Source: Methylobacterium sp. W2 (lineage in GTDB: Bacteria > Pseudomonadota > Alphaproteobacteria > Rhizobiales > Beijerinckiaceae). From it: DNA of 64,000 bases. The stretch spans positions 1-64,000 of the forward strand of contig NZ_VMOA01000003.1 of the NCBI RefSeq assembly GCF_020662345.1, in the 5' to 3' direction. Of the stretch, positions 5,265-24,530 are shown piece after piece. The first letter of the stretch is position 1. Each line of letters begins with the position of its first letter. Below the pieces are notes generated by a model. It was not told where the DNA came from. It was given only the letters and a program-made list of their open reading frames with translations, and did not search any database. The translations under genes and the position numbers were made by a program.

Positions 5265-6119
5265 TCAGGTCGCCGCGTTCACACTCAGCGCGGCACGCAA
5301 GTCGGCGCCATCGACGAGCTTTCGGCCTCGACCCGCGAGACCCGCCAGCAGGGCCCGATCGGGGAACGGGCAGTAGGGCAGGGTTTCGGCCACCACGCCT
5401 GCGCCGAGGGTACCGGAGGCGAGATCACCGAGCACCCGGTCGAGGAGGACCCGCCCCCTTTCGTGCAGCAGGATCGCGGCACGGGTGGCGGTGGTGCCGG
5501 ACGGTAGGTCCGATGCCTCTTGAGCGAGGATCGCCCCCGCGTCGATGGCGGGCGTCAGGCGATGGATCGTGACGCCGAAGGCGGGATTCTCGTCCGCCAG
5601 TGCGTGGATCGTCGGCACCGGCCCGCGATGGCGCGGCAGCAGGCCGGGATGGACGTTGAGTCCTCCGAGCGGCGCCAGCGACAGGGTCGCGGCCGAAAAA
5701 ATCTGATCGAAATGGAACGCGACGATGAGATCCGGCACATAGGTCGCGAAGGCCTGGGCGGCGTCCGGTCCGTTGACGTCGTCGATGCGCAGGGTCGGAA
5801 TGCCGAGTGTCCGGCATAACGCCTTGAGCGGCGTCGCCGTGGCCGCGTCTCCAGCCCCAGTCAGGCGCCGCAGCATCCCGGATGCCGGGGCCAGCAGATC
5901 GGGCAGGCCGAAATTCACCGCGAGATAGGGAAGGAATGCCGGGCCGGAACGGGCGAGGTGGCGCCGGACCTGACCGGTGAGACCGCCGGAACTCGGACGC
6001 TCCGCGTTCGACAAGCCGACGAAAGCGATCTCCCCAACGTGATCCTGCACGAACCGGCGCACCGCACGGGCATTCGGCAGGGCTTCCAGCACGAAGAGCG
6101 CGATGCGTGGACGGGTCAT
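5265..6119 (-). CDS. Formyltransferase-family protein (Fmt/PurN fold)
   Basis: A 284-residue protein with the formyltransferase active-site block: LNVHPGLLPRHRGPVPTIHA (the Asn and His of NxH) and, about 30 residues later, ITHRLTPAID-like GVTIHRLTPAIDAGAIL with the catalytic Asp. The N-terminal half is a Rossmann-like domain (RIALFVLEALPNARAVRRFV). It resembles methionyl-tRNA formyltransferase-like enzymes that formylate amino-sugars or other amines in surface polysaccharide synthesis more than housekeeping Fmt. It overlaps the upstream SDR gene by four bases (ATGA), so the two are co-translated. With the capsule genes next door, a sugar or lipid-linked substrate is a reasonable inference, not shown. 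Confidence 0.75.
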   Translation of the reverse strand: MTRPRIALFVLEALPNARAVRRFVQDHVGEIAFVGLSNAERPSSGGLTGQVRRHLARSGPAFLPYLAVNFGLPDLLAPASGMLRRLTGAGDAATATPLKALCRTLGIPTLRIDDVNGPDAAQAFATYVPDLIVAFHFDQIFSAATLSLAPLGGLNVHPGLLPRHRGPVPTIHALADENPAFGVTIHRLTPAIDAGAILAQEASDLPSGTTATRAAILLHERGRVLLDRVLGDLASGTLGAGVVAETLPYCPFPDRALLAGLAGRGRKLVDGADLRAALSVNAAT

Positions 6120-6886
6120 CGCTTGCTGCGTCCGACCTTGAACCGGAAGCCGCGCATGGAGCGGCGGCGCAAGCCTTCCGGCAGCAGGGCCGATCCGCGC
6201 GCCAGGGAGGCGAGGGGCTCGGGAAAGGCGATGATGTCGAGGTCACGCGCCAGGCCACGCGCGATGCGGGCAGCCGCCTCCTCGGCGCTCATCTCCATCG
6301 GGCGCCAGCCTTCGTAATCCCCGCCCATGGTGGTCTTCACATAGCCGGGCGTCACCACGTTCATCTTGACGCCGCGGGGGGCGAGCTTGGCGCGCAGCGC
6401 CAGTCCATGGGCGAGCAGAGCCGCCTTGGTGCCGCTATAGGCCGGCGCGTCGGGCAGCGGTGCGAAGGCGGCGAGCGACGAGATCAGGGCGATCTGGCCG
6501 CTCCCGCGCGCCAGCATCAGGGTGACGCAGGGCAGGGCGACGTTCAAGGCGCCGTTCAGATTCACGTCCACGGTCTCGAACGCCATCGCCTCGGTCTCGA
6601 TCTCACCGCCTGGATGGCCGCCATTGATGCCGGCATTGACGATGACGAGATCGAGGGGCGAGGCCGCGTGCGTCTCGCGCAGCCATTCGGCCACGGCCGG
6701 CCTGTCGCGCACGTCGAGGGAACGGGTCGCCACGGACGCGCCCCTTGCGCGGCACTCGAGGGCTACGGCGTCCAGCCGATCGATGCCGCGCGCATTGAGA
6801 ACGAGGTGCGTGCCGGGCGCGGCGTAATGCCGGGCAAGGGCCGCGCCGATACCGCTCGAGGCACCGGTGATGAGAATGACGGGCAT
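6116..6886 (-). CDS. Short-chain dehydrogenase/reductase
   Basis: A 256-residue classical SDR: nucleotide-binding TGASSGIG (residues 7-14), NAG motif (IVNAGING), catalytic Ser in LISSLAAF, and YxxxK as YSGTKAA, with NVVTPGYVKTTM following. It reduces a carbonyl or oxidises an alcohol with NAD(P)H. The basic C-terminal tail (RRRSMRGFRFKVGRSKR) could contact membranes, as seen in some lipid-acting SDRs. It is first gene of a two-gene unit with the formyltransferase (four-base overlap). The substrate is unknown. Confidence 0.85.
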   Translation of the reverse strand: MPVILITGASSGIGAALARHYAAPGTHLVLNARGIDRLDAVALECRARGASVATRSLDVRDRPAVAEWLRETHAASPLDLVIVNAGINGGHPGGEIETEAMAFETVDVNLNGALNVALPCVTLMLARGSGQIALISSLAAFAPLPDAPAYSGTKAALLAHGLALRAKLAPRGVKMNVVTPGYVKTTMGGDYEGWRPMEMSAEEAAARIARGLARDLDIIAFPEPLASLARGSALLPEGLRRRSMRGFRFKVGRSKR

Positions 6887-6895
6887 GGGGCCTGT

Positions 6896-6950
6896 TCTAG
6901 AGCATCATTCCGGCAAGCGGGAACCGGTTCTCGGAGGAGATCATGCCGGA
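6896..6950. repeat. Degenerate copy of a Rhizobiales dispersed palindromic repeat
   Basis: The segment reads AGAGCATCATTCCGGCAAGC, then GGGAACCGGTTCTCGGAGGA, then GATCATGCCGG. This matches the layout of the dispersed element (AGCATGATCC, GGAACCGGTTTTCGG, GATCATGC) frequent between genes in Bradyrhizobium, Methylobacterium and relatives. The outer arms are imperfectly complementary here, so this copy looks decayed. Recognition is from memory of the pattern. Confidence 0.5.
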
Positions 6951-7003
6951 CCGATAACGGGACGCAGCGGCCCGCCTGGAACGAACCGAGGCGCGGCGCC
7001 CGA

Positions 7004-8311
7004 TCAGTAGACGGGAGCGAGTTCCGGGGTTCTCGTCGAGCGTTCGCGGATCGCCTGAGCCGCGGCCAGGGCCGGGGCGGGAAGCCTGGATTCCATCCGC
7101 AGGACGCTGCCCGCCACAGCCCGGTCGATGGACGGGCGAGAGAAGAAACCGCCATTCACCTGGGTCCGGTGAAGGACGACGCGGCGAAAATCCGCCATCA
7201 GTGCCATGTCCGGAGCTTCGGGCTTCGTCCAGAACGTGTCGAGGCCGCCCTGATGGGTGAGGCCGGGCAGATTGTAGATCGCCTCGCCCGCAGCGGCGGT
7301 CGGGCGTCCGAGTTCGAGGGACAGCATCCCCACGGTGCTGTTCACAAGCACCACGCCCCGGCTGCCAGCGATGAGGTTGGGCAGGTCGCCGCCGTCGATG
7401 AAATCGAGCCGCTCGTCCACGCCGTGGCGCCGGGCCGAATTACGGGCATGCTTGCGCCAGTTCACCAGACCGCTGTCGAGCGGGTGGAGCTTGATCAGCA
7501 GCCTCGACGTAGCGGACGCATGGGCGGCAAAGGACGCGATGACACGATCCATGAACCCTTCCACCCCGAGGAAGGGCGAGTGGACGCGGATCTGATAATC
7601 GCTGTCGAGTTGCAGCGGCAGCAGGAAGTACTCCTCCTTGCGCGCCGCATAGATCTCGCTGAGTTCCCGTGCCTGGCGCCGTGTGCGGCTCCGGCCGGCG
7701 AACTTCTTGATCCAACCCACATATTCGGCCGCGACATGGATCGGTCGATGGCTGCGGAAATGCGGGAAGAAGTAGGGAAACCCGATATTGGCGATGTTGT
7801 AGGCCACGTCCCACAGGCTGCGGCGGGCCATGTCGCCGCTCGCCGGCATCGCGCGCCCGGCCCGCGGCAGGCGGCGGGCGATGGCGCGGATCTCGTCGGG
7901 GCTGCGAGGCAGCGAGGAATGGCCGTTGACGCCGCCGAGCTCACACGTAACCCAGTTCGGCCGCAGATAGCCCTCTTCGAACACGTGGATGCGGATGCCG
8001 AGGGGCTCGGCGGCTTCGCGCGCAGCCACATGATAGGGCCGGCAATCGCCGAACAGGACGATATCGGTCACGCCGTGGTCGACGATGTAGCCGGCGATGT
8101 AGGCGTCCCAGCCCTCGCGAGGGCCGCGATAATTGTCCGAGCCGAGTCGCCAGAACAACCAGTCACCCGAGGAGAAGTTGATACGTCGCACCTGATGGCC
8201 GCGCTTGAGCAGCGCCTGGCCCAGATCGGCGAAGAACGGCGAGGCGATCCCCTGCAGAAACAGGAAGGTCGCAGGCCTCTCGCGTGTGGTGTCTACGCGT
8301 GTCGGCAACAT
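7004..8311 (-). CDS. kpsS: Capsular polysaccharide export/beta-Kdo transferase, KpsS-like
   Basis: A 435-residue protein with many KpsS landmarks in order: FLQGIASPFFADLG at the N-terminus, LFGDCRPYH, FEEGYLRPNWVT, GGVNGHSSLPR, RVHSPF, IKLHPLD, VVLVNSTVGM, GLTHQGGLDTFW and a QVNGGFFS end. KpsS adds the first beta-Kdo residue to lyso-phosphatidylglycerol, building the lipid anchor of group 2/3 capsules at the inner face of the cytoplasmic membrane. The ATG at 8311 starts just before the conserved region. An in-frame ATG at 8398 would add 29 residues without similarity. The gene is divergent from the kpsC-like gene. Confidence 0.88.
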   Translation of the reverse strand: MLPTRVDTTRERPATFLFLQGIASPFFADLGQALLKRGHQVRRINFSSGDWLFWRLGSDNYRGPREGWDAYIAGYIVDHGVTDIVLFGDCRPYHVAAREAAEPLGIRIHVFEEGYLRPNWVTCELGGVNGHSSLPRSPDEIRAIARRLPRAGRAMPASGDMARRSLWDVAYNIANIGFPYFFPHFRSHRPIHVAAEYVGWIKKFAGRSRTRRQARELSEIYAARKEEYFLLPLQLDSDYQIRVHSPFLGVEGFMDRVIASFAAHASATSRLLIKLHPLDSGLVNWRKHARNSARRHGVDERLDFIDGGDLPNLIAGSRGVVLVNSTVGMLSLELGRPTAAAGEAIYNLPGLTHQGGLDTFWTKPEAPDMALMADFRRVVLHRTQVNGGFFSRPSIDRAVAGSVLRMESRLPAPALAAAQAIRERSTRTPELAPVY

Positions 8312-8576
8312 GCGGAAGTGCTTGCTCCTGCGCCCAGGAAGGGCGTGTCGAATGGGCACGTACACCGCCCTGATCGCACGGATGGTGCAACGCGGCAATT
8401 GCGTAGCACGGCCTTGTTAACGGAATTCCTGGGGGCGTGATGTGTCGGCAACAAGGCACCTTGTCGGTCCCTTCGAGATCGGGTCCCCATCGTCCGCCGG
8501 TGGACGAGATCGGATCGCCTGACGGCGCGGATCGTCGTATGGCTGCAGCCTCCCACACCCGGATCAGCGAGCTCCG

Positions 8577-10106
8577 TTGTCCATTCCTTCGACGCCATCT
8601 CCCTCGGCCGCATCGATCGCCACACGATCGCTGCTCGCCGCGAGCCGGCCCATCCAGGCCCTGCGAGCGGAAATCGAAGCCGTGACGGGCCTCGGCTTCG
8701 GCCGGGCGTGGAGGCCGGAGGCGATCGGCGTGGTCTGGGGGCGGGGCGGCCTGGCCGCATCGAGCCTGCGCCTGGCCGGTCGCGCGATCCTCGCCGTCGA
8801 ACCTGGGCCTCTGCTCAGCCCCTACGATTCGCCGGCGACGGGCCTGTCGACCCTGCGTCTCACCCTTGACGGCATTCCGTTCGGTGGGGAGGCCGGGATC
8901 CACGCCTTCGACCCGTGGACGCGGCGGCCGATTCCGTTCGAGGAATGCCGGGACAAGGTGGCATGGCTGGAGGGCCGGTTCCGGGACAACCACCGCCCCA
9001 CCGTCCTCGTCGGCATTTCCCGTTGGAAACGGCCGGCCCTCGATGTCTTCGTCAGCGGCCCGTCCGGCAAGCCCGTCCATGCCATGAACGCCGAGGATGC
9101 CGTGGCGAAGGCCAGGGCTGGAAATGCCCGCATCCTCGCCTGGGCGACGCGGATGCCTGAGCGACTGCCGGCGCTCTGCGCGGAACAGGGCCTTCCCCTC
9201 GCGCGGATCGAGGACGGGTTCCTGCGTTCGGTCGGCCTCGGAGCAAGCCTGCAGCCGGGCGCCTCCATCGTGGTGGACGACAGCGGCATCTATTACGACC
9301 CGCGCACCGAGAGCCGGCTCGCGCGCATTCTGAAGAACGAGGATTTCTCGCCCGAACTCCTGGCCCGGGCAGCGGCCCTGCGCCGGCTCGTGGTCGAACG
9401 GCGCCTGACGAAGTACAATGTCGGTCTCGCGGGAGACGCATCGGGTTGGCCCGAAAACCGGCGCATCGTGCTGGTGCCGGGCCAGGTCGAGGACGATGCC
9501 TCGGTACGGCACGGCTCACCGCATGTCCGCTCGAATCTCGAACTCCTGCGTGCGGCCCGCGCCCGCAATCCGAGGGCTTTCCTGCTCTACAAGCCGCATC
9601 CCGACGTGGAGGCCGGGTTCCGGCCCGGCGTGATCCCGGAGGCTGAGGTTCAGGCCCTGGCCGACCGGGTCGTGGCCGGCCTCTCCATCGTCGATCTCCT
9701 CGACCGGGCACACCATGTGGAGACGATGACGTCGCTCGCGGGGTTCGAGGCCCTGATCCGGGGCCTGAGCGTGACGGTCCATGGTCGCCCGTTCTATGCC
9801 GGCTGGGGGCTCACCGAGGATCTCGCACCCGGCGCCGACAGGGGCCGGCGGCTCGCCCTCGACGAACTCGTGGCCGGCGCGCTCCTCGTCTACCCGCTCT
9901 ATCTCGACCCCGTGGCGATGAAGCCGTGCACGCCCGAACAGCTTCTCGACCGGCTGAGCGAGAGCCGCGAGGCCGCGCCGCCCTCGAAGCTCGCCCTCAG
10001 CCGCCGGGCACAGATCGTCATGCGCCTGCGCTACGCCGTGCTGAATCCCATCGTCCGCCTGATCCGGGCGCGGCGGGGGATCGGCAGAGGCGGCGACAAG
10101 GCATGA
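8577..10106 (+). CDS. kpsC: KpsC-like beta-Kdo transferase, single GT99-type domain
   Basis: 509 residues from a TTG start. The C-terminal ~360 residues match the second catalytic half of KpsC: GISRWKRPALDVF, IEDGFLRSVGLG, IVVDDSGIYYDP, VLVPGQVEDDASVRHGS, LLYKPHPDVEAG, TMTSLAGFEALIRG and PFYAGWGLT. The N-terminal ~150 residues keep only a remnant of a first domain (WGRGGLAASS, FDPWTRRPIPFEE). Full-length KpsC has two GT99 domains and about 670 residues, so this version probably has one complete transferase site. With KpsS it would make a poly-beta-Kdo linker. The stop overlaps the next start (ATGA at 10103). Confidence 0.87.
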   Translation: MSIPSTPSPSAASIATRSLLAASRPIQALRAEIEAVTGLGFGRAWRPEAIGVVWGRGGLAASSLRLAGRAILAVEPGPLLSPYDSPATGLSTLRLTLDGIPFGGEAGIHAFDPWTRRPIPFEECRDKVAWLEGRFRDNHRPTVLVGISRWKRPALDVFVSGPSGKPVHAMNAEDAVAKARAGNARILAWATRMPERLPALCAEQGLPLARIEDGFLRSVGLGASLQPGASIVVDDSGIYYDPRTESRLARILKNEDFSPELLARAAALRRLVVERRLTKYNVGLAGDASGWPENRRIVLVPGQVEDDASVRHGSPHVRSNLELLRAARARNPRAFLLYKPHPDVEAGFRPGVIPEAEVQALADRVVAGLSIVDLLDRAHHVETMTSLAGFEALIRGLSVTVHGRPFYAGWGLTEDLAPGADRGRRLALDELVAGALLVYPLYLDPVAMKPCTPEQLLDRLSESREAAPPSKLALSRRAQIVMRLRYAVLNPIVRLIRARRGIGRGGDKA

Positions 10107-11596
10107 TCATCCTCGCCGCTCTCACCTTGGCGCTCGTCGGCTCCCTCGCCATCGAGGCGTGGGACGGTGCGGATCGCCGGCCCATCGGACGACGCCCTGC
10201 CGAGCTGGCCCTGCGCCTCACTGGCTATGCGCTGCTCACGGTTTTCTGGTTCTGCTTCTCGTGGCGCCCCTGGCTCGCGGCCTTCTCCTGCCTGCTCACC
10301 GTCGCGATCCTCGTCGTCGTCAGCCGGTTGAAACAGGCGGTGATCGGCGAGCCGCTGGTGTTCAGTGATTTCGCCCTGCTGCGGCAGGTGCCGCGCCATC
10401 CCGACCTCTATTACACGCGGCCCCTCACCGACCCGCGCGTGGCCATCCCCCTCGGGGCGAGTCTCGTCGTCGTCGCCCTCTGGTACTGGATCGAGCCCAG
10501 CGCGCTGCCCGAAGAGCCGAGCGTGGCCGTCGTCGCCGTGATCAGCCTGCCCTGCCTCCTCGTCGGGCTGGCCTCCGCCCTCACCAGCGGAAGTCCGGCG
10601 CCCTGGCTCGCGGCCCGGTTTCCCCGGCCCGATCTCGACGCGGATTGCGCGCGCTACGGGCTGCCGGCCACGATCATCGCCTATGCCCTGCGCTGGAGAC
10701 GCGAACCACCGCCGCCGGAGACCAGCGACGACGTCTCGCTCGGGCAATCCGGTGCAGCACCGGTTGTGGTGGTCGTTCAGCTCGAATCCTTCATCGACCC
10801 GACCCGGCTCGGCGGTCCGGACATTCCTTTGATGGAGATGATCCGGACCCGTGCCTCGCGCCACGGCCGGCTGACGGTCTCGGCGCACGGTGCCTACACG
10901 ATGCGGACGGAACATGCGGTGCTCACCGGGAGAGAGCCGGAAAGCCTCGGGTTCGGGCGCTACGATCCCTACCTCAGCAACGGCGGCGATGAGCCGGCAA
11001 GCATCGCCCGGCGGGCCATGGCTGCGGGATACGCCACCGTGTTCGTGCATCCCTTCCATCGCGACTTCTTCCATCGCGCCGAGGTGATGCGGCGGTTCGG
11101 CTTCACGCGCCTGGTGATGGAGGAGGATTTCGCCGGTGCCCCGCGCATCGGGCCGTATGTCGGCGACGAGGCCCTCGCGGCGCGCATCCTCGCGGAGGTC
11201 GAGGCGGCACCGACACCCGTCTTCGTCTTCGCGGTGACGATGGAGAACCATGGCCCGTGGAAGCCCGGCCGGCTCGACGGCATCGACGAGCCGCTGGCGC
11301 AGTATCTTCACCATGTCGCCCATACCGGCCGCGCCGTCGAACGCCTGATCGCCGGCCTCGAGGGGCGCGATGCGATCCTGTGCGTCTATGGCGATCACGC
11401 CCCGTCCCTGCCCAACTGCCGGCCGGGCTTCGGCGACACGGCCACGGACTATGCCGTCTTCGGGTTCGGGACTTTCAGGAACGATCCCCACCGGGCCGAT
11501 GCCGCCGCCCCCGAGCTCGGTCGTTTCCTCCGGTCAGTCATCGCGGGGTGCTCGGCAGAACTGCCAAGATCGGCTATCGGCTCACCATCGTGCTGA
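10103..11596 (+). CDS. LTA-synthase-like membrane sulfatase-fold transferase
   Basis: 497 residues. The N-terminal ~190 residues hold about five hydrophobic segments, followed by an alkaline-phosphatase/sulfatase-fold domain. That domain shows VQLESFID (first metal ligand Glu), GAYTMRTEHAVLTG (nucleophile Thr), FVHPFHRDFFHR, TMENHGPW and the metal-binding VYGDHAPSLP. The layout is that of LtaS/OpgB/EptA-type enzymes, which transfer phosphoglycerol or phosphoethanolamine to extracytoplasmic glycans. It is translationally coupled to the kpsC-like gene (4-base overlap), so its likely target is the capsule or its lipid anchor. Donor and acceptor cannot be read from sequence. Confidence 0.82.
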   Translation: MIILAALTLALVGSLAIEAWDGADRRPIGRRPAELALRLTGYALLTVFWFCFSWRPWLAAFSCLLTVAILVVVSRLKQAVIGEPLVFSDFALLRQVPRHPDLYYTRPLTDPRVAIPLGASLVVVALWYWIEPSALPEEPSVAVVAVISLPCLLVGLASALTSGSPAPWLAARFPRPDLDADCARYGLPATIIAYALRWRREPPPPETSDDVSLGQSGAAPVVVVVQLESFIDPTRLGGPDIPLMEMIRTRASRHGRLTVSAHGAYTMRTEHAVLTGREPESLGFGRYDPYLSNGGDEPASIARRAMAAGYATVFVHPFHRDFFHRAEVMRRFGFTRLVMEEDFAGAPRIGPYVGDEALAARILAEVEAAPTPVFVFAVTMENHGPWKPGRLDGIDEPLAQYLHHVAHTGRAVERLIAGLEGRDAILCVYGDHAPSLPNCRPGFGDTATDYAVFGFGTFRNDPHRADAAAPELGRFLRSVIAGCSAELPRSAIGSPSC

Positions 11597-11650
11597 CACG
11601 AACGTGACCGAGGCGACCCCGTGCAACGTTCCGACAATGCGATAGTGGAA

Positions 11651-11667
11651 CGATCGTTAAACGATCG
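11651..11667. promoter_or_regulatory. 17-bp perfect dyad, possible operator
   Basis: CGATCGTT-A-AACGATCG, a perfect inverted repeat with a one-base centre, lies 164 bases upstream of the export lipoprotein ATG and 55 bases after the sulfatase-like gene. The arms are too short and the tail lacks Ts, so it is not a terminator. It may bind a dimeric regulator of the polysaccharide-export gene. The regulator is unknown. Confidence 0.4.
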
Positions 11668-11830
11668 AAGAGATTTGGCGCTATCAAGGGTGGACCGTTC
11701 GTGACGACCGGCCTCGCACCGGCCGCCACGGCTGGCGACCGAGACCGGCGCTGACGGACGGTTCGTATCCGCCGACCGACACGTGATCCGACAAGACACT
11801 CGTCGTGGGGGCGGGTCTGAGGAGAGTTCG

Positions 11831-13000
11831 ATGTTTCCCAAAGCCACGCTGGCCATCGCCATCGCCGTTACGGTGTCCGGCTGCAACGCCTTCCTGCCCG
11901 CCGCCGGTCCGTCGACCTCGGCCGTGGTGGACGGGAGCGACCAGGCGACGAGCGAGGGGACCTTCGCCCGCTATGAGTTCATCGAGGTGAATTCCGCCGT
12001 GGTCGAGGCCCTGCGCGGCCGTCCCCTCGACAGCCTGCTTTCATCCTTCGGCGATGGGCGCATGCCCGCCGAGCCGGTGATCGGCATCGGCGACGCCGTC
12101 GCCGTCTCCGTGTTCGAGGCGGGCTCAGGCGGTCTCTACTCAGGACCGCTCACGGTCAATTCGATGTCGGCGGGCTCGAAAGCCGCACAACTGCCCGAGC
12201 AGGTCGTCTCGCGCGATGGCGCCATCTCGGTGCCCTATGCCGGCCGGGTCAAGGTCGCGGGACGGCGTGCCCAGGATGTGCAGGCGCTGATCGAGACCGA
12301 ACTCTCCGGCAAGGCGATCCAGCCCCAGGTCATCGTTACGGTGACCCGGCCGGTCTCCCAATCCGTCTCCGTGGGCGGGGAAGCGGTGGGCGGCGCCCGC
12401 GTTCCCCTCGGCACCCAGGGCGATCGCATCCTCGACGTTATCGCCACCGCAGGTGGATTGCGGGCCCCGGTCAGCGAGACCTTCGTGCGCCTGTCGCGCA
12501 ACGGCAGGACGGCGACGGTGCCGCTGACGACCGTGGTGTCGAACCCCAAAGAGAACATCTACCTGCGCCCCAACGACAACCTCACCCTGGTGCGCGATCC
12601 CCAGACCTTCCTGGCCATCGGCGCGCTGGGCACCTCCAACGAGATTCCGTTCCAGGCCGAGGGCATCACCCTGGCGCAGGCGCTCGCCAAGGCACGCGGG
12701 CAGAGCGACGCAGACGCCGATCCCACCGGCACGTTCCTGTTCCGCTTCGAGCCAGCCCCGGTGGTGCGCCGCCTGAAGCCGGGAAGCCCGCTCCTCGGCA
12801 CGCCGCTGGTACCGGTGGTCTATCGCTTCGACATGCGCGACCCCAACAGCCTGTTCCTCACCCAGGCGTTCCGCATGCGCAACCGCGACATGATCTATGT
12901 CTCGAATGCGCCGTTCACCGAGATCAAGAAAGTCCTCTCGGTCTTCGCCGCCGCGTCCCAGCCGATCACGACCGGCATCCGCGTGGGCGGCGCTTTCTGA
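11831..13000 (+). CDS. Polysaccharide export outer-membrane lipoprotein (KpsD/Wza/BexD family)
   Basis: 389 residues with a lipoprotein signal ending in VTVSGC (Cys 18). The Poly_export domain follows (EPVIGIGDAVAVSVFEAG, GAISVPYAGRVKVAGR, QALIETELSGKAIQPQVIV), then SLBB-type segments (VGGEAVGGARVPL with RILDVIATAGG; TFLAIGALGTSNEIPF with TLAQALAKARG). A ribosome-binding site (GAGGAGAG) precedes the ATG. It should form the outer-membrane translocon for the capsule whose anchor KpsS/KpsC builds. No KpsE/Wzc co-polymerase or KpsMT transporter is in the window, so the rest of the export machine must be elsewhere. Confidence 0.9.
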   Translation: MFPKATLAIAIAVTVSGCNAFLPAAGPSTSAVVDGSDQATSEGTFARYEFIEVNSAVVEALRGRPLDSLLSSFGDGRMPAEPVIGIGDAVAVSVFEAGSGGLYSGPLTVNSMSAGSKAAQLPEQVVSRDGAISVPYAGRVKVAGRRAQDVQALIETELSGKAIQPQVIVTVTRPVSQSVSVGGEAVGGARVPLGTQGDRILDVIATAGGLRAPVSETFVRLSRNGRTATVPLTTVVSNPKENIYLRPNDNLTLVRDPQTFLAIGALGTSNEIPFQAEGITLAQALAKARGQSDADADPTGTFLFRFEPAPVVRRLKPGSPLLGTPLVPVVYRFDMRDPNSLFLTQAFRMRNRDMIYVSNAPFTEIKKVLSVFAAASQPITTGIRVGGAF

Positions 13001-13163: not shown

Positions 13164-14537
13164 TCAGGGCTTGCCGCGCTTGGCCATGAGCTGCTCGATC
13201 AACGAGCCGCCCTTCTCGATCTCGGCAAGTTCCTCGGCGACGGCCGCCACGGTCTCGCGGATCTGCTCGGGCGTGTGCTCGGAGGTGATGAAGAAGCGCA
13301 GGCGCGACGAGCGCTCCGGCACTGCCGGGTGGATGATCGGCTGAACGTTGATGCCGCGCTTGTACAGACGGTCCGACAGGGTCACCGATTTCAGCGAATC
13401 CCCGACGATGACGGGAATGACCGCGAGGCCGAGACTCGTGCCGGTATCGAGCCCGTGCTTCCTGGCGCAGGACAGGAACAGGTGACCGTTCTGGCGCAGG
13501 CGCTCGACCCGGTGCGGCTCAGCATGCATCAGGGCGAGCGAGGCTTCGGCGGCGGCGGCCAGCGGCGGGGACAGGCCGACGCTGTAAATGAAGCCGCCGG
13601 CCGTGCATTTCAGATACTCGATCAGCGCAGCCGGGCCGGCAATATAGCCGCCGCAGGACGACAGCGTCTTCGATAGCGTACCCATCCAGATGTCGACGAG
13701 GCGCGGATCGACGTCGCAATGCTCGGCGAGGCCGATCCCGGTCCGGCCGAGAACGCCGAGCCCGTGGGCGTCATCCACCATCAGCCAAGCATCGTAGCGC
13801 TGCTTCAGGGCGACGAGGCCGGCGAGATTCGGCGCGTCGCCGTCCATGCTGTAGAGGCCCTCCACAACGATCAGCGCGCGGCGGTGCTCATGCCGGGTGG
13901 CGCCGAGGAGGGTCTCCAGGGCGTCGAGGTCGTTATGGGCGAAGGAGCGGCGCTGGGCTCCCGAGAGCTGCGCCCCGGTGACGATGCTGTTGTGGCTCAG
14001 CGCATCGTGGAAGATCACGTCGCCGGGTTCGAGCAGGGCGCCGATCGTGGTGACGTTGGTGGCGTGCCCGCTCACCATCACCACGCAGGCTTCCGTCTCG
14101 TAATGGTCGGCCAGCGCCTGTTCGAGGCTGAGATGCCCGGGCCGCTCGCCCGCGACGATTCGGCTCGCCGAGGACGACGTCCCGTACTCGTCGATGGCGC
14201 GGCGCGCCGCCTCGCTCACGTCCGGGTGCCCGTTGAGGCCGAGATAATCGTAAGACGAGAAGTTGATGAAGCCCTTGCCGGCGATGCGCGTGGTGGCCCC
14301 GGCCCTGGTCTCGTGGACCCGGAAGAACGGATTGCCGAGGCCGATCAGGTCGGCGGCCGAACGCTGGAGCCGCAATTCCCGGTAGCCGGGAAGGGACTCG
14401 AACTTCTGGACCGAGGCGTCTGTCGCCTTCGCCTCCGGACGCTGGGCGGCCGGCCGGCTGGCGTTGCGGCCGAGACGATTGGTGACGAAGCCCGCGAGTG
14501 CCGCGCGGCCACCGTCGGGTCGGGGTGGGTTGGACAT
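13164..14537 (-). CDS. PKS-associated alpha-oxoamine synthase (PLP, BioF/SPT family)
   Basis: 457 residues, PLP fold type I. Key residues: His182 in DALSHNSI (stacks on PLP), the aspartate block VDDAHGLGVLG (about 255-263), and the Schiff-base Lys290 in GTLSKTLSSCGG, with GTSSSASRIVAGERPGH and SSYDYLGLNGHP typical of alpha-oxoamine synthases. These enzymes condense an amino acid with an acyl thioester, lose CO2 and give an alpha-amino ketone. It is ~60 residues longer at the N-terminus than BioF (NPFFRVHE lead), as in PKS-linked members. It starts 55 bases after the PKS stop on the same strand, and the PKS has no thioesterase, so off-loading the polyketide from the ACP is the likely job. The ATG at 14537 is preferred; an in-frame start at 14684 overlaps the PKS. 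Confidence 0.88.
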   Translation of the reverse strand: MSNPPRPDGGRAALAGFVTNRLGRNASRPAAQRPEAKATDASVQKFESLPGYRELRLQRSAADLIGLGNPFFRVHETRAGATTRIAGKGFINFSSYDYLGLNGHPDVSEAARRAIDEYGTSSSASRIVAGERPGHLSLEQALADHYETEACVVMVSGHATNVTTIGALLEPGDVIFHDALSHNSIVTGAQLSGAQRRSFAHNDLDALETLLGATRHEHRRALIVVEGLYSMDGDAPNLAGLVALKQRYDAWLMVDDAHGLGVLGRTGIGLAEHCDVDPRLVDIWMGTLSKTLSSCGGYIAGPAALIEYLKCTAGGFIYSVGLSPPLAAAAEASLALMHAEPHRVERLRQNGHLFLSCARKHGLDTGTSLGLAVIPVIVGDSLKSVTLSDRLYKRGINVQPIIHPAVPERSSRLRFFITSEHTPEQIRETVAAVAEELAEIEKGGSLIEQLMAKRGKP

Positions 14538-14592
14538 ACCGATAAAGTCTTCCGGTTGCGGATCACGAGGGCTGGTCAAAACCAGCCCTCCC

Positions 14593-17500
14593 TTACGGCA
14601 GGATCTCTTTGATCTGGAGGCTGTTCTGCTCGACGAGCTCGTGGAACGGCTCGAGTGTGCGCACGTCGACGCCCTCGCTGGCATGGCGCTGGGCCAGGCT
14701 CATCACCGCCGCCGACGCTTCGTCCACGGGCGCGGCCACGGACTGGATCAAGGTCTCCGCCAGTTCGACCACGGTCAATCCCGAGGAGATACCCGACGGC
14801 GGCGCGTCGAGGGCGAAGCGCTCCTGCAGGCTGGCGCCCAGTTCCACGCCCATCAGCGAATCGAGGCCGATCTCGGAGAGATGGCGCACGCGGCTGATAT
14901 CGTCCTTGGGCAGGCGCAGGATGCGGGCGATGTCCTCGACGATGGCGTCGGAGACGGTTTTCCGCACGGCATCGAGATCCTCGGTCTTGAGCAGGCCGCC
15001 GATGTCGATGGTGGCCACCGTGCCGGCTTCCGCCTGCTGGTCCGAACCGAGGTCGCCGTAGCTCGGGGAGCGCATGGTGGCGAGGCGCTCGCGCGCCTTG
15101 CCCCAGTGCATTGAGGCGATGGCGAGGACGGCGTTGTCGGGTGACGAGCCTTGTCCTTCCAGTGCCTCGGCCATGAGGTCGAGGGAGCGGCGGGCATCCA
15201 TCGGCGTCACGCCGACGCGGCCTGCCAGGGTCTCCATCACCGCGCGGTTGCGGGCGAGCACGCCGACATCGCCGATGGCGCCCCAGGCGACCGCAAGGGC
15301 GGGCAGTCCCAGCGCGCGGCGACGGCGGGCGAGGCCCTCCATGAAGCCGTTGGCGGCGACGTAGGCGCCCTGGCCTGGATTGCCGATGAAGGTCGTGGCC
15401 GAGGAGAACAGGACGAAGTAATCGAGCTGCCGCCCGCGGGTGGCGGCATCGAGATGCTCGGCCCCGACGACCTTCGGGCGGATCACCGCGTCGAGGGAGG
15501 CGGCGTCGAGATTGGCGATGAGGCCGTCTTGCAGCACCATCGCCCCGTGGATCACCCCGGCGAGCTTGCGGCCGCCGCTCTCGACCTCTTCGAGGAGGTC
15601 GTCCACCGCCTGGCGGCTGGTGATGTCGCAGGCCATCGCGGCGACGCTGACGCCGCGGACCGCGAGATCGGCCACCACCTGCTTGGCTTCCGGGCTCGAA
15701 GCGCCCTTTCGCCCGACGAGGACGAGGTGATGGGCTCCCCGGTCGGCGAGCCACCGGGCAGCCTCGATGCCGAAGCCGCCGAGCCCGCCGGTGATGACGT
15801 GCACGCCCTCCGCCGAGACCCGGAAATCGGACTTGCGCTCGACCACGATGCTGCCGGGCTTCGGCGGCGCGATGACGATCTTCCCAACATGTCCGGATTG
15901 CTGCATCAGCCGGAACGCGTCGGAGACCTCGTCGGCGGTGAAGGGCTGGAACGGCAAGGGCTTGAGGCCGCCCTCCGAGAACAGGGCCATCACTTCGCGG
16001 AACAGGCGTGCTCCATCCTCGCCCTGGTGCTGGAGCACCTGATCGAGATCGACGCCGAAATAAGAGAGGTTCCGGCGGAACGGCCGCAGGCCGATATGGG
16101 TGTTGGCGACGTAGTCGCGCTTGCCCAGTTCGATGAAGCGGCCGAACGGCTTCAGGCAGTTCAGGCTGCGCTCCATCGCCTCGCCGAACAGGCTGTTCAG
16201 CACCACGCCGACGCCGTCGCCGGTGATGCGGCGGACCTCGTCGACGAAGGCCAGCGAGCGCGAATCGAGGACGTGCTCGGCCCCCAGCGCCTTCACCAGC
16301 GCCCGCTTCTCGCGCGAGCCGGCGGTGGCGATGACGCGCGCGCCCTTCAGCTTGGCGATCTGCAGGGCGGCGAGCCCGACGCCGCCGGCGCCGCCATGGA
16401 CCAGCACCCATTCGCCGCGCCGCAGGCGGGCGCAGCTGACGAGGCTGTAATAGGCGGTAAGGAAGGCGACCGGCACCGTGGCCGCCGCCTGGGGATCGAG
16501 ACCGGGAGGGCTCGGCGCCACGACGAGTTCGGGCACGACGATGTGAGTCGAGAAGCCCGACTGAGCGAAGGCGACGACGCGATCGCCGACCTTGAACGCT
16601 GCGGCGCCGTTGCCCACCGAGACCACGCGGCCGGCGACCTCGAGGCCCAGGCGCGGCCCGGCAAAGCCATCCTCGAGGATCTCCTCGGGGAGCATGGACA
16701 GCGCCCAGAGCACGTCGCGGAAGTTGAGGCCGGTGGCCTCCACCGCGATCTCCACCTCCCCGCGTCCGGGCACGCGCCGCTCGGCCGGTCCCCAACGCAT
16801 GTCGTTGAGGCCCCCCGTGGCACTGCGCTCCAGCTGCGCGGCCGGCGCGGCCACGGCATCGACGGCCGGGCGGCGCGAGAGCTGTCCCGGCGCGAACCGG
16901 ATCACGCGGGTGGCATCGACGTCGAGGACGATTTCCGTCTCGGGGGTTCCCGACAGGATCACGTCGCGCAGGCGCTCGGAGGCAATCTTGGTCGGCATCG
17001 CCTCGGTGAGGTCGATGCGGCGGATGTCGAGATTGGCGACCTCGTTGGCGAGGGTGCGGGTGAAGGCCCAGAGACCGGCTTCCACCGCGCCCGCGCCGTC
17101 GTGGCGCGTCGCGCCGGGACAGACGACCCAGAGCCGGGTCTGGCGCGTCCCGAGATGCTCGACACAGCGCTTGAGGCCAAGGCAGCGCTCGCGCAGCCGG
17201 TCGGCGGCTTCACCGCCAGAGCCGAAAGCCCCGGCGAGGAACACGACCGTGTCGGGGGTCTCGCGTTCGAGTTCGAGCAGGGATTGCTCGGAATCGAGGA
17301 TGATCGAGACATGGACGCCGGCGGCGACGAGGAGCGTTGCCAGCGAGGAGGCGGTTTCGGCCGCGAAGGGATCCTGCGAGCCGATGATGAAGGTGAAGGT
17401 CTGGCCGGTGGAGGCCTTGGCCCGCACCGGCGCCTCGGCGAGGAAGAGAAGATCGTCGCCATTGGCCGAGGCGGCCCGGTCGACGGCAATGCGGACGAGG

Positions 17501-20500
17501 CCGGTATCGCTGAGCGAACGCTGCCAGCCGGTGATGTCGTCGAGGCGCCCCAGCGGCATCCCGTCCACGCTCTCGAACCAATCCGGCATCAGGCCGAAGA
17601 CGAGATCGCGGAACAGCGACGCGCCGGGCTCCACTGCCAGGAGAAAGCCGCCGGTGGCGAGGGCATCGGCGACCTTGCCGAGGAGTCCGCGCTCGGACCG
17701 GTGCAGGACGTTGCTCGCCAGGATCGCGTCGAAGCCGCCCTCCGTCAGGTCCGCCTCCTCCTCGATCACGGTGACGCCGCGGGGCAGGGCGAGGCGGGCG
17801 CGCTCGGCGAGGCGCCGATCGGTCTCGAACACGGTGAGCTGGGCGGCGATGCCGTCGGCGATGGCGGCGGCCTGCGCCGAGAGCGGCCCGAACCCGACCT
17901 GGAGGAGGCGCAGCGCGCGGTCCTTCGGCAGGTCCGCACGCGCTCCCTCGCAGATCGCCGCGATGACGTCGGACGATGCGCGGGCGGTGGCGCTACGCAG
18001 GACGAAGGCATCGAGGGCGTTCTGCGACAAGGTCGGCAGGGTCGCGAGGTCACCGGCCAGGAGGCGGGCGACGACGGCGCCGAGATCCGCCGTGAGCACC
18101 AGTTCGGCGGAGAGTTCGGGATGGTCGGCCGCGATCCAGCGCATGATCTCGTCGGGCGCGGGCAGGGTGACATCCTTGCGCAGGGTCCATCGCGTTCCGT
18201 CGAGGGTAGCGAGCCCGCTGCTCTCGAGGGCGTAGAGGGCGTTCAGCAGCCAGGGCCGCATGGCCTCCGGCACGCGCTCGTCAATGGCGACTTTGCCGGA
18301 GCGCTGCAGCCCCTCGGCCATGCGGTAGGCCAGCGAGGTGGCCCAGCCTTCGAGAAGCAGATGGCCCGGCGAGAGGGCCGCATCCGCCGGGGCGAGAGCC
18401 GCCTTGATGCCGGGGCGGACGGCATCGGCGATGCGGGCACGCCGGTCGAGGGGAATCGCGGTGGGTTCGGTGGCGAGTTCGGACCGCTGCGCGATGGCAT
18501 AGGCGGCGAGATCCTGACCGGACTTCGTGCGCAGGGCCTGGAAGCGGCCTTCGCGCAGGGTGGCGATCACCTCGCCCGCCTCGTCCACCAGGGTGAAGTC
18601 CGCCAGGATGCTGCGCTCGTTGCAGCGCCGGGTGCGGATCATCGCCCGCGCGATGACGGCGCCGGGACGGATCAGCCTGATCTCGCCGAAGCGCACCGGG
18701 ACGTAGGCCTTGGTCGAGCCCTCGCCCATCAGGTCGGCGAAGAGCAGGATCAGGCCATGGAAACAGGCGTCCAGCCGGGCCGGCACGAGGCCGAAGCGTG
18801 GGTCGGCCTCGGCCGGCTTCAATTGCGAGACGATGGTCGTCTCGTCGACGCGTGCACTGAGTGCGACCTGCCGGAAGCTCGGCCCGAAATCGAGGCCGGA
18901 AGCGGCGGCGAGGCGATAGAGCCCGGCCCCCTCCACGGCGTTCTCGGCCGGAATTTCGATGTCCTGTCGCGGACGGGCCGCGAAGGTGCCATCCACGACC
19001 TTGGCGGAGGCGTGCAGCTGCCAGCCCGCCTGGGTCAGGCGCGGGCGGCTCAGGATCTGGATCTGGTTGCCGCTGCCGGAGAGCCGGACGGCGACCTCGC
19101 GGAGGGCCTCCTCGGCGAAGACCATCGGAGACTGGATCTCGAACTCGGCCAGCACCACGTCGTCGCTGCGCATGGCTTCGCGGGCGACGCCCAGCGCCAT
19201 CTCGATGAAGGCCGCACCCGGCAGGATCGCCTGGCCGTCGATACGGTGATCGTCGAGGTCGGGCACCGTGGCGATGTCCACATGGCCGAGCCATTCGAGC
19301 CCGTCCGGCGACAGCCGCGAACCGTAGAGCGGGTGATAGGCACGGGCGGTCGCCGCGCCGACGCCCTCCGACGTCTCGGACAGGCGGAAAGGACGACGCT
19401 GCCAGGGATACGAGGGCAGGGCGACGTCGCCCATCGGATTCTCGCCGAAGACCACCGCCTCGTCGACGGCGGCACCGTGGACGAGGGCCGAGGCGAGGGC
19501 GCGGGCGAACGGGTCGGCACCGACGGGCTTGTTGGTGAGGACGCCCACCGTGGCGTTCTCGATGCCGAGGGGCTCGATGCAATCGCCGATATGCGGCAGC
19601 AGGGTCGCCCGCGGACCCACCTCGACGAAGATCCGGGCGCCCTTGCGGGTCGCTTCCTGGACCGCATCGGAGAAGCGCACCGGCTCGCGGATGTTGCGCC
19701 ACCAATAGCCGGCGTCGAACTCCCCGCCCGGCAGCACGGTGCCGGTCACGGTGGACACCATGGCGATGGCGCCGGGATGGGGCTTGAGCCCGGCGAGATC
19801 GCGCAGCAGCGGCTTCTCGGTTGGGTTCATCAGCCGACCGTGGAAGGGGTAGGCGAGGTCGAGCTTGCGGCCGCGGCGGCGCTTGCGCGCCAGCGCCTTC
19901 ATCGCCGCATCGATATCGGCGACGGGGCCCGCCACGGTGACGGCCTTCGGGCTGTTGTAGGCGGCGATGTCGAGGCTCGGATAATCCTTGAGGAAGATCT
20001 CGATCTCCTCGACCGGCGCCAGCAGCACCGCCATGGTGCCGAGGCCCCGCGTCGTCTCCTGGTGCTGGCTGCGGTAGAAGATGACCTTCACCGCCTGTTC
20101 CAGGCTCAGGATGCCGGCCCCCTCGGCGGCCGCGATCTCTCCGACGCTGTGGCCGAGGACGAAGGAGGGGACGAGGCCGGCGGCCTTCAGGGCCGTGGTC
20201 GAGGCGCTGGAGATCGCGAAGATCAGCGGCTGCGAGACCCGGGTGAGGACCATGCGCTCGGCGAGATCCTCGGCGAACAGGGCTTCCTTCAGCGACCAGC
20301 CGGAGATCGCGGCGAACAGGACGTCGATCCGGTCGAAGGCCGATTGGAACGCGGCGCTGCGCTCATACGCCTCGCGGCCCATCCCGACCCATTGGCTGCC
20401 ATTGCCGGAATAGACGAAGGCGACCTCCGCATTGCGGTCGACGGCAGTGCCGACCCGGGCAATGTCGGTCTCCTCGGCATCGGCGACCGCGCGCAAGGTC

Positions 20501-22068
20501 GCGGGCAGGTCGGCATCGAGGGGCATGGCGAGCCGGGTGGACAGTCGCTCGCGCCGATGAGCGGCGGCGGCGGCGATGCGCACGGTCTGGGCCTCATCGG
20601 CCTGCTCGAACCGCTCGGCGTAATCGAGGGCGAGTTCGTTGAGGGCAGCGCGGCTCTGGGCCGAGAGGAGCAGCAGTTCGGGAGCACGCCCGGCATCGCT
20701 CGCGGCGAGGGCCGGCATTCCGTCGGTGAGGACGATATGGGCGTTGGTGCCGCCAAAACCGAACGAGTTGACGCCGGCGAAACGCTCGCCGCGACCACGC
20801 GCGAGCGCCAGCGGTGCGGTGACCACCGAGAGATTGAGCTTGCTGAAGGGGATATCGGGATTGAGCACTTCCGCATGCAGCGAGGGCGGCAGCAGATCGT
20901 GCTCCAGGGCGAGACTCGCCTTAAGCAGGCCGGCGAGGCCCGAGACCGGCTCGGTATGGCCGATATTGCTCTTGATCGAGCCGATCGGCAGGGGCTCCTT
21001 GCGGGGCCGTCCGATCTTGCCGCCGATGGCGCTGGCCTCGATCGGATCCCCCACAGCCGTGCCGGTGCCGTGCGCCTCCACGAAGGCCACCGCGTCGAAA
21101 TCGATCTCGGCCTCGCGATAGACCTGTTCGAGCAGGGCGCCCTGCGCGTAGCCGGAGGGCAGGGAGATGCCGGTGGTCCGGCCGTCGGAATTCACGCCGC
21201 TCGCCGCGATGACGCCGCGTACGGTATCGCCGTCGCGGGCCGCTTGACGCGCCGATTTCAGTACGAGAACGACACCGCCCTCGGACCGGACATAGCCGTC
21301 GGCATTGGCCGAGAAGGCCTGGCAAAGCCCGGTGCGCGACAGCATCTGCGCGTTGGAGAAGCAGATGAAATTGAACGGGCTCGCGAGCAGGTTCACGCCC
21401 GCCACCACCGCGGTATCGATCCGGCCGCTGTCGATCGCCGCGACGGCGGCATCGAGCGCCACGAGAGAGGACGAGCAGGCGGTATCGACGGTGAAGCTCG
21501 GCCCCTTCAGGTCGTAGATGTAGGAGATCCGGTTGGACAGGATCGAGAGCGTGTTGCCGGTCGCGGCATAGGCATCGCCCGAGGACGTATCAAGGACGCG
21601 CAGGTTGCCGTAATCGAGGGACGAAGCGCCCACGAACACGCCAATCTGCGACCCGGCCACGGCGGAGGGACGCAGGCCCGCATCCTCCAGGGCCTCCCAG
21701 GTCAGTTCGAGGAGAAGCCGCTGCTGCGGGTCCATCTGCTCGGCCTCGCGTGGCGAGATGCCGAACACGCCGGGATCGAACGACCAGATGTCGTCGAGAA
21801 CGCCCGCCGACCAAGTGTAACTCTTGCCACGCTCCTGAGCGCGCGGGTGACCGAACCGTTCCAGCGACCAGCGATCTTCAGGGATGCGACCAACGGCGCA
21901 CCGTCCCTCGCTCAGAAGCTGCCAGAGGCCATCGACGCTGGCAGCGCCGGGTAACCGGCACGAACGGCCGACGATCGCTATGTCTGTACGCTTGATCACG
22001 TTCGATTCGCACACGCTCTTGATCGAGGAACCACCGTCCTGCAGCGAACGGGCGACCCTAAGATGCAT
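14593..22068 (-). CDS. Reducing type I polyketide synthase, KS-AT-DH-psiMT-ER-KR-ACP
   Basis: 2,491 residues in one frame. KS about 27-450 with triad Cys198 (DTACSSS), His333 (EAHGTGT), His371 (SNIGHTEP). AT about 548-850 with GHSVGE Ser641 and YPFH at 740-743, closer to the malonyl-type HAFH than to YASH (tentative). DH about 912-1180 with HRIDGQAILP (His941) and Asp1100 (LDACFH). A methyltransferase-like region (about 1380-1500) has LLQVGFGPLSA instead of a glycine-rich SAM loop, so probably dead. A structural KR half spans ~1555-1690. ER about 1755-2070 with HGGAGGVGLA. KR about 2085-2290 with GGLGGFG, Ser2222/2223, Tyr2236, Asn2240. ACP with phosphopantetheine Ser2404 (GLDSLMG). No thioesterase or reductase end. 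One complete module suggests an iterative enzyme making a reduced chain, handed to the adjacent alpha-oxoamine synthase. The start is uncertain: ATG 22068 or GTG 21999. Confidence 0.93.
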   Translation of the reverse strand: MHLRVARSLQDGGSSIKSVCESNVIKRTDIAIVGRSCRLPGAASVDGLWQLLSEGRCAVGRIPEDRWSLERFGHPRAQERGKSYTWSAGVLDDIWSFDPGVFGISPREAEQMDPQQRLLLELTWEALEDAGLRPSAVAGSQIGVFVGASSLDYGNLRVLDTSSGDAYAATGNTLSILSNRISYIYDLKGPSFTVDTACSSSLVALDAAVAAIDSGRIDTAVVAGVNLLASPFNFICFSNAQMLSRTGLCQAFSANADGYVRSEGGVVLVLKSARQAARDGDTVRGVIAASGVNSDGRTTGISLPSGYAQGALLEQVYREAEIDFDAVAFVEAHGTGTAVGDPIEASAIGGKIGRPRKEPLPIGSIKSNIGHTEPVSGLAGLLKASLALEHDLLPPSLHAEVLNPDIPFSKLNLSVVTAPLALARGRGERFAGVNSFGFGGTNAHIVLTDGMPALAASDAGRAPELLLLSAQSRAALNELALDYAERFEQADEAQTVRIAAAAAHRRERLSTRLAMPLDADLPATLRAVADAEETDIARVGTAVDRNAEVAFVYSGNGSQWVGMGREAYERSAAFQSAFDRIDVLFAAISGWSLKEALFAEDLAERMVLTRVSQPLIFAISSASTTALKAAGLVPSFVLGHSVGEIAAAEGAGILSLEQAVKVIFYRSQHQETTRGLGTMAVLLAPVEEIEIFLKDYPSLDIAAYNSPKAVTVAGPVADIDAAMKALARKRRRGRKLDLAYPFHGRLMNPTEKPLLRDLAGLKPHPGAIAMVSTVTGTVLPGGEFDAGYWWRNIREPVRFSDAVQEATRKGARIFVEVGPRATLLPHIGDCIEPLGIENATVGVLTNKPVGADPFARALASALVHGAAVDEAVVFGENPMGDVALPSYPWQRRPFRLSETSEGVGAATARAYHPLYGSRLSPDGLEWLGHVDIATVPDLDDHRIDGQAILPGAAFIEMALGVAREAMRSDDVVLAEFEIQSPMVFAEEALREVAVRLSGSGNQIQILSRPRLTQAGWQLHASAKVVDGTFAARPRQDIEIPAENAVEGAGLYRLAAASGLDFGPSFRQVALSARVDETTIVSQLKPAEADPRFGLVPARLDACFHGLILLFADLMGEGSTKAYVPVRFGEIRLIRPGAVIARAMIRTRRCNERSILADFTLVDEAGEVIATLREGRFQALRTKSGQDLAAYAIAQRSELATEPTAIPLDRRARIADAVRPGIKAALAPADAALSPGHLLLEGWATSLAYRMAEGLQRSGKVAIDERVPEAMRPWLLNALYALESSGLATLDGTRWTLRKDVTLPAPDEIMRWIAADHPELSAELVLTADLGAVVARLLAGDLATLPTLSQNALDAFVLRSATARASSDVIAAICEGARADLPKDRALRLLQVGFGPLSAQAAAIADGIAAQLTVFETDRRLAERARLALPRGVTVIEEEADLTEGGFDAILASNVLHRSERGLLGKVADALATGGFLLAVEPGASLFRDLVFGLMPDWFESVDGMPLGRLDDITGWQRSLSDTGLVRIAVDRAASANGDDLLFLAEAPVRAKASTGQTFTFIIGSQDPFAAETASSLATLLVAAGVHVSIILDSEQSLLELERETPDTVVFLAGAFGSGGEAADRLRERCLGLKRCVEHLGTRQTRLWVVCPGATRHDGAGAVEAGLWAFTRTLANEVANLDIRRIDLTEAMPTKIASERLRDVILSGTPETEIVLDVDATRVIRFAPGQLSRRPAVDAVAAPAAQLERSATGGLNDMRWGPAERRVPGRGEVEIAVEATGLNFRDVLWALSMLPEEILEDGFAGPRLGLEVAGRVVSVGNGAAAFKVGDRVVAFAQSGFSTHIVVPELVVAPSPPGLDPQAAATVPVAFLTAYYSLVSCARLRRGEWVLVHGGAGGVGLAALQIAKLKGARVIATAGSREKRALVKALGAEHVLDSRSLAFVDEVRRITGDGVGVVLNSLFGEAMERSLNCLKPFGRFIELGKRDYVANTHIGLRPFRRNLSYFGVDLDQVLQHQGEDGARLFREVMALFSEGGLKPLPFQPFTADEVSDAFRLMQQSGHVGKIVIAPPKPGSIVVERKSDFRVSAEGVHVITGGLGGFGIEAARWLADRGAHHLVLVGRKGASSPEAKQVVADLAVRGVSVAAMACDITSRQAVDDLLEEVESGGRKLAGVIHGAMVLQDGLIANLDAASLDAVIRPKVVGAEHLDAATRGRQLDYFVLFSSATTFIGNPGQGAYVAANGFMEGLARRRRALGLPALAVAWGAIGDVGVLARNRAVMETLAGRVGVTPMDARRSLDLMAEALEGQGSSPDNAVLAIASMHWGKARERLATMRSPSYGDLGSDQQAEAGTVATIDIGGLLKTEDLDAVRKTVSDAIVEDIARILRLPKDDISRVRHLSEIGLDSLMGVELGASLQERFALDAPPSGISSGLTVVELAETLIQSVAAPVDEASAAVMSLAQRHASEGVDVRTLEPFHELVEQNSLQIKEILP

Positions 22069-24508: not shown

Positions 24509-24530
24509 CCGGTCGAGAGGCGATGACCCC

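Follow-up and report, generated by a model that had tools for sequence, protein, structure and literature searches.

The polyketide synthase (PKS) and alpha-oxoamine synthase (AOS) genes at positions 13164-22068 of the window, by which we mean the whole 64,000-nucleotide stretch of Methylobacterium DNA that was analysed, are very probably the Methylobacterium version of rkpA-rkpG in a capsule-lipid gene set of the rkp-1/wcb type. We make this assignment because the gene complement of the region matches that of the Sinorhizobium meliloti locus, and because AOS genes of the RkpG type co-occur with the Capsule_synth family. The PKS lies beside an RkpG-type AOS, and genes for a short-chain dehydrogenase (SDR), an RkpI-type membrane enzyme, a KpsS-type protein and polysaccharide export are found with them. 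The analysis establishes orthology, neighbourhood, intact catalytic residues and co-occurrence. The available excerpts of four papers place rkpA-rkpG in the Sinorhizobium rkp-1 region for capsular polysaccharide synthesis (PMC3908369, PMC7902896, PMC4245539, PMC3557214), so that the pair, which the initial annotation did not recognise as a described pathway, does belong to a known locus. According to the excerpt of one of them, rkpA is said to make a lipophilic molecule, which rkpGHIJ are said to modify and move, and which is a possible carrier or anchor of the polysaccharide (PMC3557214). The gene order is given, again in excerpt, as rkpABCDEFGHIJ with rkpU upstream (PMC7902896).

The PKS gene (14593..22068, minus strand; open reading frame 22068-14593) encodes 2491 residues and is an orthologue of RkpA, the S. 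meliloti protein being 39.5% identical across an alignment of 2534 columns. Its start is uncertain: in one relative the open frame begins at a GTG some 18 codons further downstream. Pfam identifies KS, AT, DH, ER (ADH_N and ADH_zinc_N), KR and ACP domains, forming one reducing module. The motifs TACSS, EAHGTGT and NIGHT are found in the KS, GHSVGE with YPFH in the AT, HxxxGxxxxP and DACFH in the DH, YVAAN in the KR and GLDSL in the ACP; we take these motifs, and those given below for the AOS, to be the catalytic signatures of their domains. Pfam and motifs agree with the initial annotation, which had described a single reducing module with intact KS, AT, DH, KR and ACP residues, and no thioesterase is present among the 15 Pfam families matched, again as described. 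The methyltransferase-like domain that it listed does exist as a stretch between DH and ER, but this is degenerate, and a functional methyltransferase domain was rejected since all the matches are below the Pfam threshold (best E 0.0013). On the upstream side of the PKS, on the opposite strand, there is a DUF1800-DUF1501 gene pair (23039-25766).

The AOS gene (13164..14537, minus strand; open reading frame 14537-13164, 457 residues; PF00155) follows the PKS on the same strand after a gap of 55 bases. Its frame opens at 14684, and the start at 14537 aligns with the start in relatives. It is 54% identical to its S. meliloti counterpart. The motifs LSK, DDAH and SHNS are intact, so that the spacing, the lysine and the DDAH are all as first reported. 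Residues K290, H182, D255 and H258 are invariant in 38/38 aligned relatives, which places the protein in the AOS family; we take K290 to be the PLP lysine, H182 the stacking histidine, and D255 and H258 the cofactor-site aspartate and histidine. Within the family, however, it is under the cut-off of all 12 NCBIfam models that it matches, bioF included. The best match is bioF (TIGR00858) with 359 bits against a cut-off of 426, and the serine palmitoyltransferase (SPT) models NF047599 and NF047600, with cut-offs of 500 and 640 bits, give 269 and 299 bits. Among solved structures its closest relatives are an enzyme of the AONS/KBL type together with serine palmitoyltransferases, and SPT, which belongs to the same fold family, can be aligned with the window AOS across the whole enzyme. 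A hallmark of SPT is the motif PATP, present in 4/4 SPT rows of the alignment, whereas 3/3 RkpG-type rows have P[AS]VP; the window AOS has PAVP at this site, and a serine where 5-aminolevulinate synthase (ALAS) has a threonine. The phylogenetic tree puts the AOS in an RkpG clade of 22 rows with support of 100/100, separate from SPT, ALAS, KBL and BioF. Assignment as SPT was rejected on the sub-cut-off scores, the separate clade and the absent PATP motif.

The same genome contains three additional AOS-family genes, one of bioF type and two for 5-aminolevulinate synthases, none of which reaches an SPT or KBL cut-off. Both 5-aminolevulinate synthases exceed their own cut-off. A bioA relative is 1.9 kb away from the bioF-type gene, whose scanned part gives 402 bits, which is also below the cut-off of 426. 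In the tree this bioF-type gene forms a long branch next to the RkpG clade, at a weakly supported node (83/72); the two bioF rows come out apart from each other.

The initial annotation had treated the pair as a stand-alone two-gene locus, with no dedicated transporter or tailoring genes nearby beyond the SDR and a formyltransferase. This does not hold: partners of the pair occupy 5265-13000, including four capsule-type genes at 7004-13000. Nearest to the AOS is a polysaccharide export protein (11783..13000, plus strand; Poly_export PF02563, with SLBB) in the RkpU position, which shares 34% identity with the gene that precedes the PKS in S. meliloti. It is preceded by the RkpI-type membrane enzyme (10103..11596, plus strand; PF00884), identified by profile as a relative of the phosphoglycerol transferases GacH and LtaS, and 33% identical to the S. 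meliloti gene in the interval between SDR and capsule gene; its start was placed from the overlap with the gene before it. That gene encodes a KpsC-like protein (8577..10106, plus strand) with one Capsule_synth module (PF05159), which matches the solved KpsC structure 6mgd at 9e-66. A KpsS-like protein (7004..8398, minus strand; PF05159) is in the RkpJ position and is 42% identical to the S. meliloti capsule gene. It covers positions 15-389 of 390 in model NF050054 with E 4e-75, and we call it KpsS-like rather than KpsS because its score, 254 bits, is below the cut-off of 600; a single-sequence PDB search with it gave no match. These two genes are the sole Capsule_synth matches in the whole genome. 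The SDR (6116..6886, minus strand; PF00106), in the RkpH position, is 43% identical to a Paraburkholderia SDR and weakly similar (29%) to the S. meliloti SDR that adjoins the AOS. The formyltransferase gene (5265..6119, minus strand; PF00551) overlaps that of the SDR by 4 bases.

All six protein types of rkp-1 (RkpU, RkpA, RkpG, RkpH, RkpI and RkpJ) are therefore found in the window. The rkp names are assigned by gene order, because the S. meliloti record used here (L025, CP090106.1) carries none. Unlike S. meliloti rkp-1, the window has its genes on both strands, and has a KpsC-like gene and a formyltransferase in addition. It is worth adding that L025 is a 3.7 Mb record titled pSymB, yet has secD and the rkp-1 genes, and is perhaps a mislabelled chromosome; the literature, in the excerpt available, puts rkp-1 on the S. 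meliloti chromosome (PMC3557214). The Burkholderia wcb cluster (WcbR) is called orthologous to rkp in an excerpted description (PMC3908369), and on that description it has in common with the window a one-module PKS together with capsule genes. Related Paraburkholderia and Burkholderia loci differ from the window in having an extra LpxC-type deacetylase and a GNAT. The deacetylase gene lies between PKS and AOS in Burkholderiales (L028:12926-13840, L032:12940-13866, L081 and L087). Group 2 capsule assembly in E. coli uses KpsS and KpsC, for which the window has like proteins. The E. coli pathway starts on (lyso)phosphatidylglycerol, described in excerpt as the KpsS acceptor (PMC10148158), whereas the window has a dedicated PKS-AOS lipid route.

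Relatives of the RkpI-type enzyme are annotated as 'LTA synthase family' (L028, L029, L032) or 'alkaline phosphatase family' (L027). A profile search of the PDB ranked GacH first (7e-37), ahead of LTA primase, LtaS and an uncharacterised protein; a single-sequence PDB search gave no match. The NCBIfam LtaS model is unmatched by the RkpI of both the window and S. meliloti, and three relatives match it at 21-24 bits, where the cut-off is 970. The nucleophile position is threonine in 29/29 relatives, and E228, H383 and GDH 430-432 are invariant in 23/23 aligned rows; presumably the threonine is the nucleophile, and the glutamate, histidine and Asp-His pair are metal ligands, as in GacH/LtaS. The relationship to GacH/LtaS is a distant one, consisting of these shared residues and the profile match. 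A formylglycine sulfatase was considered and rejected, given the threonine at the nucleophile position and the absence of sulfatases among the eight PDB matches. The protein has about five membrane segments. Loops 1 and 3 have the larger number of K/R in 23/23 rows but are also longer, and for this reason the charge count was not used for topology. Since KpsS works inside the cytoplasm but LtaS and GacH outside, the topology of RkpI is the weak point of the model set out below.

The distribution of the pair was examined by scanning species genomes with an alignment of nine PKS-linked AOS proteins. The conserved gene pair that the initial annotation suggested looking for is indeed there: in 78 of the best 80 of at least 589 relatives, the AOS is accompanied by a PKS match scoring 400 bits or more, a fraction that is not unbiased because the query was itself PKS-linked. 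In Planktothrix (L030, plasmid p3) and one Streptomyces (L031) the two are a single protein, whose AOS part is inside the 100/100 RkpG clade; in the Streptomyces fusion KS, AT and ACP are present and the reducing domains are absent. Two of the 80 loci, L102 and L076 (the latter short), have no PKS in the available DNA, which counts against the model. Their RkpG-type AOS genes (L102:10001-11212 and L076:1234-2445) are from Hyphomicrobiales MAGs, and the one in L102 adjoins a urocanase gene. Outside Methylobacteriaceae, at least one capsule-type gene occurs in 44/62 of these best 80 loci and, where at least 19 kb is covered, in 41/48, leaving seven in which none was seen. Within Methylobacteriaceae the figure is 9/18, many of these loci being short or unlinked. 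The PKS-linked query biases these fractions too.

Co-occurrence was assessed in 299 proteobacterial genomes, drawn evenly. An RkpG-type AOS is present in 15 of them, using a limit of 560 bits that was chosen after the scores were seen (the next value being 485). Capsule_synth is found in 14/15 genomes with this AOS and 54/284 without it, one of the 14 (G325) being scored positive on a weak partial match of 66 bits; with the six genomes of the same genus left out, the count is 8/9. A small sample of the order outside the genus gave 2/3 with and 3/21 without (p 0.10), and all Fisher values are descriptive because the genomes are not independent. RkpI at 450 bits or more, a limit likewise chosen with the scores in view (next value 325), occurs in 11/15 RkpG genomes and 0/284 others; the four RkpG genomes in which it is absent are G210, G272, G270 and G072. 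The last of these, from the same family, has two PKS-AOS pairs (L141, L142) and no Capsule_synth match, which is a point against the model, and one of its pairs is near genes for an ABC-2 transporter, a Wzz-like protein and a GDP-mannose dehydratase.

The AOS is 98% identical in M. bullatum, where the remaining genes of the block are 89-98% identical, and is 77-98% identical in 36/36 other sampled genomes of the genus Methylobacterium; beyond the family, 3/24 genomes of the same order have relatives at 57-60%. AOS and Capsule_synth are both present in 37/37 Methylobacterium genomes. They are within 20 kb of each other in 14, more than 600 kb apart on one contig in 5, and on separate contigs in 18, so that in 23/37 the pair and KpsS are not within 20 kb, against the model. 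In five of the unlinked genomes (L130-L134) the SDR, KpsS-like, KpsC-like, RkpI, export and formyltransferase genes are nevertheless still clustered. Also against the model, RkpI was not found at E 1e-60 in 25/109 Methylobacterium genomes. Two of these 25 were examined (L137, L139), and both retain KpsS, KpsC, SDR, formyltransferase and the export gene. A PhyH-type dioxygenase gene is present in the capsule cluster of one of them (L139:12870-13937), and another in the capsule cluster of a Pseudomonas plasmid that does have RkpI (L029:15243-16286).

Weaker RkpI-like genes occur in genomes that have no RkpG. In G304 (320 bits) and G328 (325 bits) they adjoin KpsS, and in G318 (288 bits) the gene is one gene away (L143-L145); all three retain the threonine. 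Two further RkpI-like genes, in G237 (272 bits) and G200 (270 bits), were left out, these genomes being without Capsule_synth. Each of G304, G328 and G318 has an SPT over the cut-off, and SPT occurs in only 4/54 Capsule_synth genomes without RkpG, namely these three and G058. The association (Fisher p 1.6e-4) rests on small numbers and is descriptive only; the expectation about SPT was formed after the RkpI counts and before the SPT counts.

Amine-acylating genes provide a clue to the AOS product. The formyltransferase adjoins the SDR in 13/13 Methylobacterium loci with an SDR match (the window's own, L026, L047, L048, L130-L134 and L137-L140). In the gammaproteobacteria Cocleimonas (L103), Marinobacterium (L109) and Thiothrix (L101), formyltransferase matches lie 49-294 bases after the AOS match, and a GNAT directly follows the AOS in L028, L081, L087 and G325. 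The presence of two unrelated amine-acylating types beside one type of AOS suggests that the AOS product keeps a primary amine. In most of the best 80 of at least 589 loci neither gene was found, and the nearest solved relatives of the formyltransferase are sugar-nucleotide and tRNA enzymes, which speaks against a role in capping a lipid.

We propose that an amino-ketone may be an intermediate in synthesis of the capsule anchor, because the AOS family, the SDR and the nearby amine-acylating genes fit this. The PKS, presumably acting iteratively, would make a reduced acyl-ACP and, being without a thioesterase, would be unloaded by the AOS. In this step a decarboxylative condensation between the acyl thioester and an amino acid would yield a long-chain 2-amino-3-ketone, as the chemistry of the family and the PKS-AOS fusions lead us to infer. 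In fungal fumonisin biosynthesis, a secondary metabolite pathway, a PKS chain is released by an AOS; this release step resembles the one proposed here in its working. Reduction of the 2-amino-3-ketone by the SDR would then give a sphingoid-like amino alcohol, the formyltransferase (in some other lineages GNAT) would cap the amine, and RkpI would add phosphoglycerol. Such a head group would make the lipid resemble lyso-phosphatidylglycerol, the usual acceptor of KpsS. In other bacteria the KpsS and KpsC families build a beta-Kdo linker for capsule, and by analogy they would do so on this lipid, with the capsule made on the linker and exported. Taken as a whole, the chain from acyl-ACP through amino-ketone, amino alcohol, N-formyl and phosphoglycerol forms to Kdo linker and capsule has in our judgement slightly less than an even chance of being right in every step. 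In the open-licence literature we found nothing linking rkpG with 'oxoamine synthase' or rkpI with rkpH in this sense, nor anything tying KpsS to sphingo-lipids.

Two other readings keep the capsule connection. An older label of rkpG is acyltransferase, and the AOS might be just that, the anchor then being another acyl lipid made with no amino-ketone. The AOS being below the cut-off for every named subfamily agrees with this, as does the wording of the literature, which in the excerpt available names just 'a lipophilic molecule' (PMC3557214). We nevertheless consider it improbable, since all 38 aligned relatives keep the PLP lysine, histidine and aspartate found in decarboxylating AOS enzymes and amine-acylating genes adjoin the AOS in several lineages. 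It is also possible, if unlikely, that the PKS-AOS-SDR lipid is the anchor but that RkpI and the formyltransferase act on the polysaccharide, placing phosphoglycerol or N-formyl groups on its sugars. GacH, the best PDB relative of RkpI, modifies a cell-surface polysaccharide, enzymes of the GacH/LtaS type are probably extracytoplasmic, and the formyltransferase has its nearest solved relatives among enzymes that use sugar nucleotides. On this reading one would not look for the pattern observed, in which 0/54 Capsule_synth genomes without RkpG have an RkpI reaching 450 bits, the weaker RkpI-like genes beside KpsS accompany SPT, and a formyltransferase or GNAT directly follows the AOS in several lineages.

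The remaining readings take the pair away from the capsule. On the view that the initial annotation favoured, the two genes form a pathway whose end product is a free secondary metabolite, either an amino-ketone or a sphingoid. This could be defended from the seven of 48 well-covered loci outside Methylobacteriaceae with no capsule gene near the pair, and from G072, where the pair occurs without Capsule_synth. However, capsule genes adjoin the pair in the window and in the other 41, the locus is syntenic with rkp-1, co-occurrence with Capsule_synth extends genome-wide, and even in G072 one pair has polysaccharide-type neighbours (those named above). A stand-alone natural-product pathway was rejected on the neighbouring capsule genes and the rkp-1 synteny, and a free metabolite is very unlikely; what survives of the coupling first suggested is the conserved pair and the amino-ketone as a proposed intermediate, not as end product. 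That the AOS is BioF of the biotin pathway, with the PKS supplying a pimeloyl-like chain, can practically be discounted: bioF is its best NCBIfam match, but at 359 bits against 426, the genome has another bioF-type gene near a bioA relative, and the RkpG clade is separate.

Returning to the capsule-anchor proposal, it may extend well beyond Methylobacterium. Rather than lyso-phosphatidylglycerol, many proteobacterial capsules could have as their anchor a sphingoid-like phosphoglycerol lipid of polyketide origin, N-capped and produced by RkpA-RkpG-RkpH-RkpI, and genomes with ordinary sphingolipids could use SPT with an RkpI relative for a similar anchor, so that RkpI would mark 'sphingo-PG' anchors. 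We put this forward tentatively, and think it more doubtful than the chain of steps in the window. Capsule-lipid loci of the rkp/wcb kind were already known; what is new is the Methylobacterium member and a concrete proposal for the rkp lipid. If the proposal is true, there would be a second kind of capsule anchor, sphingoid-like in its chemistry and PKS-made, whose enzymes could be assayed singly, and Methylobacterium would lend itself well to the search for the capsule lipid. The proposal would also be relevant to legume symbiosis, through rkp, and to the way in which many Proteobacteria assemble capsules.
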